Source: Rahnella bruchi (GTDB lineage: Bacteria > Pseudomonadota > Gammaproteobacteria > Enterobacterales > Enterobacteriaceae). From it: DNA of 64,000 nt. The stretch covers positions 372,001-436,000 of the forward strand of contig NZ_QZWI01000003.1 of the NCBI RefSeq assembly GCF_003614975.1, in the 5' to 3' direction. The position numbers were made by a program, and so were the translations under genes. The notes under the pieces were generated by a model. It made no database searches and was not told the DNA's origin. It saw only the letters and a list, made by a program, of their open reading frames with translations. This document shows positions 43,211-45,980 of the stretch, piece by piece (position 1 is the stretch's first letter; the number at the start of each line of letters is the position of its first letter).

Positions 43211-44521
43211 TTACTTCGCTTTAGCTAACAATAAGTTGGCGACGGTACGCACACCTAAACCGGTCGCACCGGCAGACCACTGATCCGCTGCGCTTTTACG
43301 GTAAGTGGCGGAACAGTCGATGTGCAGCCAGCCTTTCTTATATTCCGTCACGAAATGAGACAGGAACGCCGCTGCCGTGCTCGCGCCCGCAGTATGCGCA
43401 GGACCTGCAATGTTGTTCAGTTCAGCGAAGTTAGAAGGCAGATGCGAACGGTGGAACTCTTCCAGCGGCAGGCGCCAGAAAGGTTCATTTTCAGCCTTCG
43501 CGCTTTCCAGCAGTTCGCCGGCCAGTGCATCATCAAAGCTGAACAACGCGTGGTAATCGTTGCCCAGGGCAGTTTTTGCCGCACCGGTCAGCGTTGCCGC
43601 ATCGATGATAAGTTCCGGGTTTTGCGCAGAAGCATCGATCAGGCCATCAGCCAGCACCAGACGGCCTTCGGCGTCGGTGTTCATCACTTCGACGGTTTTG
43701 CCATTGCGGTAGCGGATGATGTCGCCGAGTTTCAGTGCGTTGCCGCTGACCATATTATCCGCACAGCACAGATAAAGCTTCACGCGTTTGTTCAGGCCGT
43801 TAGCCGCCGCCAGCGCCAGTGCGCCGGTCAGCGTCGCGGCGCCACCCATATCGGCTTTCATGGAATCCATAGAAGCGCTGGGTTTGAGGCTGTAGCCGCC
43901 GGTATCGAAGGTAATACCTTTGCCGACCAGGCAGGCGTAAACCGGTGCATCCGCGTCGCCGCTCGGGTTGTAATCCAGTGCCAGTAATACCGGCGGACGG
44001 TCAGAACCACGGCCTACGGTGTGGATCCCCATGTAACTTTGCTGACGCAGGTCGTCGCCTTTGGTGATGCGGTAGCTGACTTTTTCGTTACCAAATTCGC
44101 ACATCAGATCAACAGCGCGTGTGGCCAGCTGCTCCGGGGACAAATCTTCCGCCGGGGTATTGATGGTGTTACGCACCCAGTCGATAATTTTCAGGCGTTG
44201 TTTCAGCGTGTTCGCGTCATCTTCAGACAGTTCAGCCCATTCAACATTGCGCGTGCCTTTCGGACCACGGAAGCCCTGCCAGAATGCCCAGCTGTTTTCG
44301 AGATCCCAGCCTTCACCCGCCAGTTTGACGTTTTTAACGCCCTGACCGTCGATGCGGCGTGCCGCGCGAGAAATAGCCGTCAGCGCATCGCCGTCTTTCA
44401 GATGAATGGTCATACCGGCGGCATCCGTGCTCAGTGTTGCCTTTTCGCCCCAGCGTGCATCAGCTGGCTCAGACGAAAGGAAAACGGACATCGCTTCATT
44501 GGTTGTTACTTCGGAACTCAT
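43211..44521 (-). CDS. pepB: Peptidase B (M17 leucyl aminopeptidase family)
   Basis: 436 residues. Metal and active-site motifs are [31 protein letters not shown] and [20 protein letters not shown]. The N-terminal domain starts [23 protein letters not shown] at 44521 has CAGGAG; other in-frame starts (44578, 44434) are less supported. In E. coli it follows iscX at the end of the isc cluster; here it follows iscS after only 81 bases, which exposes the loss of iscUA-hscBA-fdx-iscX. Confidence 0.95.
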
Positions 44522-44602
44522 AACAGGACTCCTGATTGTTTTTATCTTCAATGAATATTTATTATCAATGACAGGCAAATCACCCGGTCAGCGGGTGGCA
44601 CT

Positions 44603-45772
44603 TCATTTCGTATAAACAGGCGGCAATTCACGCAAGCGTCGGACTGATTTCACCACCAGCGCAATCGCGTAATCAATTTCTTCTTCCGTGGTCCAGCGTC
44701 CGAGAGAAAAACGGATTGAGCCGTGTGCCAGCTCCTCGCTTAATCCCAGCGCGCGCAGCACGTAAGAGGGTTCAAGACTGGCAGAAGTACAGGCTGAACC
44801 GGACGATACAGCCAGATCCTTGAGCGCCATAATCAGGGATTCCCCTTCAACATCGGCAAAACTGACGTTAAGAATATTTGGCGCGGCATGTTTCGCCGTA
44901 CCGTTGAGAAACACCTGATCAAGCTGCTGAATACCTTTCCACAAACGATCGCGCAGTACGGTCAGACGCGCCACTTCGGCCGTCATTTCTTCATTGGCAA
45001 TGCGGTAGGCTTCGCCCATTCCGACAATCTGATGCACCGGCAGCGTTCCGGAACGCATACCGCGCTCATGGCCACCGCCGTGAATTTGCGCGTCAATCCG
45101 CACTTTCGGTTTGCGGCTGACATACAGCGCGCCAATGCCTTTCGGCCCATAAATCTTATGCGCAGAAAATGACATCAGATCCACTTTCAGTTCACTGACA
45201 TCAATCGCAATTTTGCCCACACTTTGTGTCGCATCCACATGGAACAAAATACCGCGACGGCGGCACAGTTCGCCGATTGTCGCAATATCCTGCACCACGC
45301 CGGTTTCATTATTCACCTGCATGATCGACACCAGAATGGTGTCCGGGCGCAGCGCCGCTTCAATCATAGCAGGAGGAATAATACCGTCAGCCTGCGGAGC
45401 TAAATAAGTGACGTCGAAGCCTTCGGATTCCAGCTGAGCACAGGTGTCTAACACCGCTTTGTGTTCGGTCTGACTGGTGATGAGATGGTTGCCTTTATCA
45501 CGCTGGGCGTGGGCCGCGCCCTTAATCGCCAGGTTGTCAGATTCTGTCGCGCCCGATGTGAAAACAATTTCACGCGGGTCAGCATTAATCAGCTCAGCAA
45601 TCTGGTTGCGGGCGACATCCACCGCTTCTTCGGCCTGCCAGCCAAAGCGGTGAGAGCGGGAAGCCGGGTTACCGAAAGTACCGTCGAGTGTTAAACACTG
45701 CATCATCATCTTCGCCACACGCGGGTCAACCGGCGTGGTGGCAGAATAATCGAGATAAATAGGCAATTTCAT
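44603..45772 (-). CDS. iscS: Cysteine desulfurase IscS, C-terminally shortened
   Basis: PLP-dependent enzyme that moves sulfur from cysteine to acceptors. It clearly belongs to the IscS group rather than Nif[20 protein letters not shown] lysine K206 (SFSAHK), H104 and the sulfur-carrying C328 ([21 protein letters not shown]). The protein stops at residue 389 (RELPPVYTK); E. coli IscS has 404 residues, and its last residues form a tail beyond PLWEMYK that is missing here. The tail region has been implicated in IscU binding. No iscU, iscA, hscBA, fdx or iscX follows. ATG at 45772 is fixed by homology; a strong terminator lies between iscR and this gene, so it needs its own promoter. Confidence 0.93.
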
Positions 45773-45915
45773 GGCAGGTAAGCTCCGGACTGCGCGTTCG
45801 GCTTCGAACGAAAGAATGAAAAAAACGACATCCAGTTTAAAACGGGTTCGCAGATTCTTAAAAGGGAAATGACACTTTGCGGGCACTAATCGGTAAGAAT
45901 TGACGTCTGAAAAGC

Positions 45916-45955
45916 AAAAGCCCGCGGAAATCTGCATTTCCGCGGGCTTTTTAAA
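45916..45955. terminator. Strong bidirectional terminator between iscR and iscS
   Basis: AAAGCCCGCGGAAA (45917-45930) and TTTCCGCGGGCTTT (45937-45950), a perfect 14-bp stem with a 6-base loop, with T-rich tails on both strands. It lies 30 bases past the iscR stop. In E. coli the iscR-iscS spacer is transcribed through and forms a structure that stabilises iscR mRNA after RyhB action; here the U-tract makes it look like a true end of the iscR transcript. Confidence 0.88.
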
Positions 45956-45980
45956 TCGGTTATCAATGCAGATTTAGCGA

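Follow-up and report, generated by a model that had tools for sequence, protein, structure and literature searches.

Loss of the ISC assembly core beside a retained but altered IscS in Rahnella and other Enterobacterales

In the 64-kb stretch of Rahnella DNA analyzed here (the window), iscS is followed directly by pepB, and the ISC genes that separate the two in relatives are missing. The reading we favor, with a probability of roughly 0.88, is that the ISC core was deleted in place and cyaY was lost, that SUF is the sole assembler of Fe-S clusters, and that IscS has been retained for TusA, and probably ThiI, while its ISC surface decayed. On this view, an in-place deletion removed iscUA-hscBA-fdx-iscX from a common forebear of Rahnella and its sister lineages, cyaY was likewise lost, and SUF alone supplies the clusters. 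TusA (and probably ThiI) would still need the IscS persulfide for tRNA thiolation and molybdopterin, and IscS would have been retained for that reason. Free of IscU, CyaY, IscX, Fdx, and HscB, IscS could have lost its tail and the surface binding these partners, with the TusA face and the active site held constant; IscR and its autoregulatory site would have been kept as an Fe-S sensor. The gene content, the pattern of loss, and the changes in sequence described below are direct observations. IscS has probably ceased to build clusters, and we would predict no route of assembly other than SUF.

The iscS-pepB junction and the assembly systems of its genome

The order on the minus strand is iscR, iscS, pepB, and sseB (Table 1), and NCBIfam names all four proteins, each above its cut-off. 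The window's IscS scores 684.8 bits against TIGR02006 (cut-off, 643.2) over profile positions 1 to 385 of 402 and has H104, K206 (the PLP lysine), and C328 (the persulfide cysteine); residue numbers come from a 404-aa Trabulsiella protein and are assumed to equal those of E. coli. By score and catalytic residues, it belongs to the IscS subfamily, with desulfurase activity as a prediction. An earlier, sequence-only reading of this DNA had placed 81 bases between the iscS stop (44603) and the pepB ATG (44521) and had noted the end at residue 389 with the three catalytic residues intact, and all of this holds. The C-terminal IscU-binding segment (residues 376 to 404) is incomplete, with L386 and W387 changed and residues 390 to 404 missing. 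That reading had also reported iscU, iscA, hscB, hscA, fdx, and iscX missing from the window; tblastn with the isc proteins of Trabulsiella guamensis (L017), which did match iscR, iscS, pepB, and sseB, found none of the six in the 64 kb.

Table 1. Features of the isc locus in the window
Feature	Position	Strand	Description
sseB	42269..43132	-	Conserved flank adjoining pepB
pepB	43211..44521	-	Aminopeptidase B, ATG at 44521; gene after the isc operon in relatives
iscS-pepB junction	44522..44602	-	81 bases; site of iscUA-hscBA-fdx-iscX in relatives
iscS	44603..45772	-	389 aa, ends RELPPVYTK; IscS-type cysteine desulfurase, C-terminal IscU-binding tail mostly missing
Conserved block start	45853..45870	-	Upstream of iscS, common to the window's clade; may act as promoter or leader for iscS
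Hairpin	45916..45951	-	16 bp plus short T run between iscR and iscS; z -5.2; terminator-like
iscR	45981..46475	-	Fe-S regulator; C92, C98, C104, H107, E43 retained
IscR type-1-like site	46541..46565	-	Upstream of iscR; matches the consensus at 23 of 25 positions

The genome is a 5.5-Mb draft in 63 contigs, rated 100% complete. Genome-wide searches gave no match to the IscU family, HscB, or CyaY, that is, to the scaffold, the co-chaperone, or the accessory frataxin of the ISC system, and no NifU was found. An intact sufA-B-C-D-S-E run is present (L213), its open frames in order: SufB and SufD were identified by PF01458 and SufA by PF01521, and the remaining frames we take to be sufC, sufS, and sufE from their order. 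The sufS and sufE reading frames are complete. Three A-type carriers are encoded, compared with four in most control genomes, and TusA and ThiI are both present.

Retention of IscS and change at its partner surfaces

The family sample comprised 198 genomes, 131 of at least 2 Mb (rounded sizes) and 67 smaller, and 130 of the 198 have an IscU-family match. One of the 130, G153, was counted as IscU-less, its sole match being of NifU length and on a different contig from iscS. Among the 131, IscU and SUF are both present in 82, IscU alone in 22, and SUF alone in 27, and no genome lacks both. None of the 67 reduced genomes retains both systems (25 with IscU only, 41 with SUF only, and 1 with neither). 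On the co-occurrence of cyaY and iscU, PMC4440780 cites Huynen 2001. In the genomes of at least 2 Mb, the two are found together in 103 and are jointly absent from 27, with a single genome having IscU without CyaY and none the reverse; nine smaller genomes also have IscU without CyaY, and CyaY without IscU occurs in 0 of 198. The single larger exception (G035, 5.4 Mb; L173 was also noted) has a congener, G179, that does carry CyaY. The lack of CyaY in every genome that retains SUF but not ISC would speak against a selected role of CyaY on SUF. The pattern agrees with excerpts of PMC4440780, according to which every genome with cyaY also has iscU across 2742 prokaryote genomes.

IscS itself is retained in all 27 IscU-less genomes of at least 2 Mb. 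HscB was found in 0 of these 27 and in 19 of 19 chosen IscU-bearing controls, whereas the TusA family is present in all 46. A-type carriers number three in each of the 27, four in 17 of the controls, and three in the two SUF-less controls. ThiI gave a strong match in 24 of the 27 (in a short frame in G159) and in all 19 controls; it is decayed in G063, and G185 and G202 have a weak match only. Among 80 named loci, 71 have iscU and nine have a gap like that of the window, the latter covered at the locus itself: an Enterobacterales MAG (L015), five Pantoea (L023, L024, L028, L029, and L031), two Erwinia (L032 and L033), and Lonsdalea quercina (L046).

The tail of IscS follows the presence of IscU. 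The 75 IscU-bearing rows, among which four pairs are one genome entered under both name and handle (identical rows), are all 404 aa long and agree with the consensus at 11 to 19 of the final 19 residues; in the 49 IscU-less rows, length ranges from 382 to 405 aa and agreement from 0 to 8. Loss of the IscU-binding tail, as first read from the window, stands there, but IscU-less proteins elsewhere are not always shorter; most of the conserved tail sequence is always lost, even where length is kept. Independent tree pairs agree with the association in 4 of 4 cases, too few to reach 0.05. According to excerpts of PMC2854127 (Shi 2010), IscU contacts IscS at 309 to 316, 347, and the last helix (379 to 391), and IscS without 376 to 404 fails to bind IscU; W45, E49, and D52 are required for TusA, and R116, R220, R223, R225/E227, R237/M239, and R340 are among the residues required for CyaY and IscX.

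Seven groups, which together include 42 of the 49 IscU-less rows, were scored for deviation from residues that at least 95% of IscU-bearing enterobacteria share. Across 270 conserved core positions the mean deviation, taken as background, is 0.11, and each position counts as independent in the permutations. The TusA set (residues 45, 49, 52, 55, 65, 220, and 237, chosen as contacts or for their sensitivity to mutation) shows zero deviation in all seven groups (42 rows; P = 0.014), and W45, E49, D52, and R55 are retained in 49 of 49 rows. In the seven rows outside the groups there are five TusA-site deviations, one at 65, one at 220, and three at 237. The TusA set also varies beyond Enterobacterales, where 11 of 51 IscU-bearing rows have E in place of D52 and one has A in place of E49. 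The active-site set is nearly as constant (deviation, 0.002; P = 0.017), being unchanged in six of the seven groups and at 0.01 in the seventh.

CyaY/IscX sites not shared with TusA behave differently, with a deviation of 0.32 (P = 0.005). The Lonsdalea group counts against our reading, as its full CyaY/IscX set has changed no more than the rest of the protein (0.09 versus 0.09). Nor do IscU contacts outside the tail (309 to 316, 347, 326, and 333) show a significant excess (0.19; P = 0.12). At sites with an effect on ThiI but none on TusA, the deviation is 0.42 (P = 0.005), which also counts against our reading, given that ThiI itself is mostly retained; four of these five sites are CyaY/IscX sites as well, so their drift may reflect the loss of CyaY rather than a change in ThiI.

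Certain single residues show the most marked parallel changes. In a 105-row set, K92 is kept in 0 of 40 IscU-less rows, K101 and R112 in 1 each, and F89 in 9, compared with 64, 64, 65, and 65 of 65 IscU-bearing rows, respectively. In the 51 IscU-bearing rows from outside Enterobacterales, F89, R112, L386, W387, M389, and W401 are identical throughout; K101 is found in 50 and K92 in only 25. K105, kept in 47 of the 49 IscU-less rows, is a further point against our reading. Mutation of R112/R116 weakens Fdx binding and mutation of K101/K105 does not, in the portion of PMC3750173 consulted; in that of PMC5037179, the K101/K105 double mutant is among those losing HscB binding partly or wholly. No partner is assigned to K92 in the excerpts of the IscS studies cited here. 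As a whole, the IscS core shows roughly double the divergence that PepB distance would predict for pairs with one IscU-less member (for example, 0.190 versus 0.080 at a PepB distance of 0.20 to 0.25), a descriptive comparison in that pairs share history.

In all IscU-less groups, then, the tail is shortened or scrambled, and in most the CyaY/IscX/Fdx/HscB surface is eroded, while the TusA and active sites are almost wholly kept. From the loss of the ISC partners together with the kept TusA site, we infer that IscS came to donate sulfur for tRNA thiolation, with SUF making the clusters. The first reading of the window had proposed a drift of IscS to a scaffold-free form serving tRNA and thiamine. 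The changes in tail and surface bear out the drift, and the tRNA role fares well; the thiamine part is less secure, since ThiI is kept in most IscU-less genomes but residues that lower ThiI binding when mutated have drifted.

IscS might instead still feed clusters through SufBCD or a carrier such as NfuA, ISC and SUF having fused rather than ISC having been lost. Such a fusion would sit well with the universal retention of IscS in the 27 larger IscU-less genomes, with the near-constant active site, and with the retention of IscR. We nevertheless consider it unlikely: the window's own genome has complete sufS and sufE frames, and the keeping of TusA sites while most other partner sites drift is enough to explain why IscS stays. 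Of the possibilities raised from the window for Fe-S assembly, SUF or another system, SUF is likewise favored by the intact suf run and by the family comparison, with activity as the predicted part.

Number and mode of the losses

A quick tree of PepB, SseB, and IscR (111 rows, 69 with IscU and 42 without) gave 7 changes of IscU state, at least 5 of them on well-supported branches; when IscR and six long rows were removed, leaving 105 rows, it gave 5, and a single IscU-less clade was rejected (p-AU, 5e-68). The IscU-less groups are Rahnella with two sister genera; G115; a group that we take to be Sodalis-like, whose one named row is a MAG; Lonsdalea with G129; and Pantoea with part of Erwinia, the last possibly reflecting more than one event. 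G125 and G159 are also IscU-less, on long branches of unsure placement.

Decayed ends of iscX lie before pepB in some of these genomes. Among 42 gaps scored against simple base shuffles, the relic is clear in six (G131, G115, and the Sodalis-like G066, G119, G017, and G039), each exceeding all 60 shuffles, which shows loss in place in three lineages other than that of the window; the loci with these remnants are L150, L143, L134, L138, L140, and L145. Apparent relics in L033 and L028 beat all shuffles only by very short matches and were not counted. None of the 42 gaps gave an iscX relic in the window's own clade, so that synteny is what argues for loss in place there. Matches to iscU, hscB, and fdx in 43 gaps were at chance level. 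The earlier suggestion that the scaffold genes were lost thus gains from the genome-wide searches and the comparison, with relics in other lineages and none here.

Change counts on a tree do not separate loss from gain, and a single ancient loss of ISC in Enterobacterales, followed by several regains of the operon by transfer, would agree with them. We think this very improbable. IscU-bearing loci with pepB downstream have their isc genes (a few without iscX) between iscS and pepB; F89, R112, and four residues of the tail do not differ from those of Vibrio, Pasteurellaceae, and Pseudomonas; the decayed iscX in three IscU-less lineages shows loss; and CyaY would have to have been regained too.

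The iscS-pepB gap of the window, which also occurs in other lineages, is found in 14 of 14 Rahnella genomes, each with one IscS (E value of 1e-100 or better; 389 to 391 aa) and pepB close downstream. In keeping with Rahnella as the genus, two 12-kb contig queries matched plasmid DNA of Rahnella victoriana, one at 81% over 39% of its length and the other at 83% over 15%. An IscU-family match is absent from 12 of the 14, and the other two (L003 and L004; G010 and G002) have NifU-length frames beside a NifS-like gene. Some Rahnella members may thus have a nitrogen-fixation type of assembly without ISC, and excerpts of PMC10946135 describe a Rahnella strain with a nif cluster that includes nifU, IscA and IscU being named as additional in a Variovorax strain. 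We rejected NifU as a replacement scaffold, as only these 2 of 14 genomes carry it and the window's genome does not. An assembly error or an ISC core relocated elsewhere, perhaps with a second iscS, is the least probable alternative and effectively ruled out, for although the genome is a draft in 63 contigs, the junction lies within a contig (C3) and recurs in all 14 genomes, the searches of this 100%-complete genome for IscU, CyaY, and HscB were null, and the two Rahnella family matches are of NifU length.

Beyond what could be read from the window, the loss appears as recurrent in the family, with CyaY lost alongside, the TusA site kept, and iscX relics in other lineages. Taken together, this makes it probable, though less so than the account of the window itself, that Enterobacterales lost ISC independently on some five or more occasions, with cyaY never left in place in the genomes sampled, and that IscS was remodeled in similar fashion each time. 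The changed sites would mark a surface used for ISC only (F89, K92, K101, R112, and R116 plus the tail, including the CyaY/IscX/Fdx/HscB cleft), the kept sites would define a minimal TusA-type desulfurase, and CyaY would have no selected role on SUF. The gene content shows SUF left alone several times, and as far as activity can be predicted from it, SUF would have replaced ISC as the only assembly system on each occasion.

Regulation and comparison with known systems

The IscR residues E43, C92, C98, C104, and H107 are present in 41 of 41 IscU-less and 68 of 68 IscU-bearing rows. The type-1-like site upstream of iscR averages 22.7 of 25 in 42 IscU-less and 22.8 in 68 IscU-bearing rows (shuffles, about 15.8 to 15.9). 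With both equally kept, the IscR sensor loop appears to outlive the loss of its main target.

Hairpins similar to that between iscR and iscS are visible in the same gap of relatives; a consensus terminator scan of the minus strand called no terminator at the hairpin (45951-45916), so termination there is a guess. In some Rahnella members, the stretch from the iscR stop to the hairpin is longer by about 115 bases. A conserved block within 45773-45912, upstream of iscS, contains a pair of CCNTTTTAA-like direct repeats at a spacing of about 22 bases and is also found in the gaps of L094, L123, L124, L126, L131, L137, and L148.

Near sufA, the best Fur-box score averages 12.8 in 23 of the 27 IscU-less genomes and 14.6 in 17 controls with both IscU and SUF (P = 1e-4), with sufA assigned by position, L234 to L273 as the regions upstream of it, and G063, G159, G185, and G202 left out. 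We rejected lost Fur control of suf as a feature of IscU-less genomes, as there is little difference within the Erwiniaceae-like and Pectobacteriaceae-like genomes and kinship confounds the comparison. Type-2 IscR sites at suf showed no clear difference between IscU-less genomes and controls (P = 0.07).

Enterobacteria are the textbook case of two systems, with ISC for housekeeping and SUF for stress. In our sample, SUF is the only system in 27 of the 131 genomes of 2 Mb or more, which suggests that it is able to take on housekeeping in full-sized relatives of E. coli. The recurrence of the loss also amounts to a natural mutagenesis of the IscS hub, by which residues for IscU, CyaY, IscX, Fdx, and HscB can be told apart from those for TusA. 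Frataxin has been proposed, from E. coli, to regulate SUF too (PMC11446229, in excerpt), and the absence of any CyaY without IscU in 198 genomes bears on that proposal. It is already known that SUF-only bacteria are common and that cyaY goes with iscU (excerpts of PMC11559095 and PMC4440780, respectively). In the open-licence literature searched, we found no account of ISC being lost repeatedly in Enterobacterales while IscS changed in parallel, which is no proof of novelty. Nor did open-licence titles and abstract openings describe loss of the ISC system from Rahnella, Pantoea, Erwinia, Lonsdalea, or Sodalis.

Compared with the iscRSUA-hscBA-fdx-iscX operon and IscS hub of E. coli, the window keeps the iscR, iscS, pepB, and sseB order of IscU-bearing enterobacteria, and its IscS is of the same TIGR02006 equivalog, with identical TusA-site and active-site residues; its lineage differs in lacking six genes and cyaY and in having most of the tail and part of the CyaY/IscX/Fdx/HscB patch changed. 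YrvO of Bacillus is a stand-alone cysteine desulfurase that serves tRNA thiolation. IscS here resembles such enzymes in having no scaffold of its own but would have reached that state by loss of its partners. The lineage also resembles SUF-only bacteria, which make up most bacteria in the excerpted text of PMC11559095, in that SUF is the only assembly system found; here, however, the state arose repeatedly inside a family mostly endowed with both systems or with ISC, and iscR and a remodeled iscS remain. As under the rule in the PMC4440780 excerpts, cyaY never occurs without iscU, and what our sample brings to it is parallel co-loss of the two within one family in which SUF stays.
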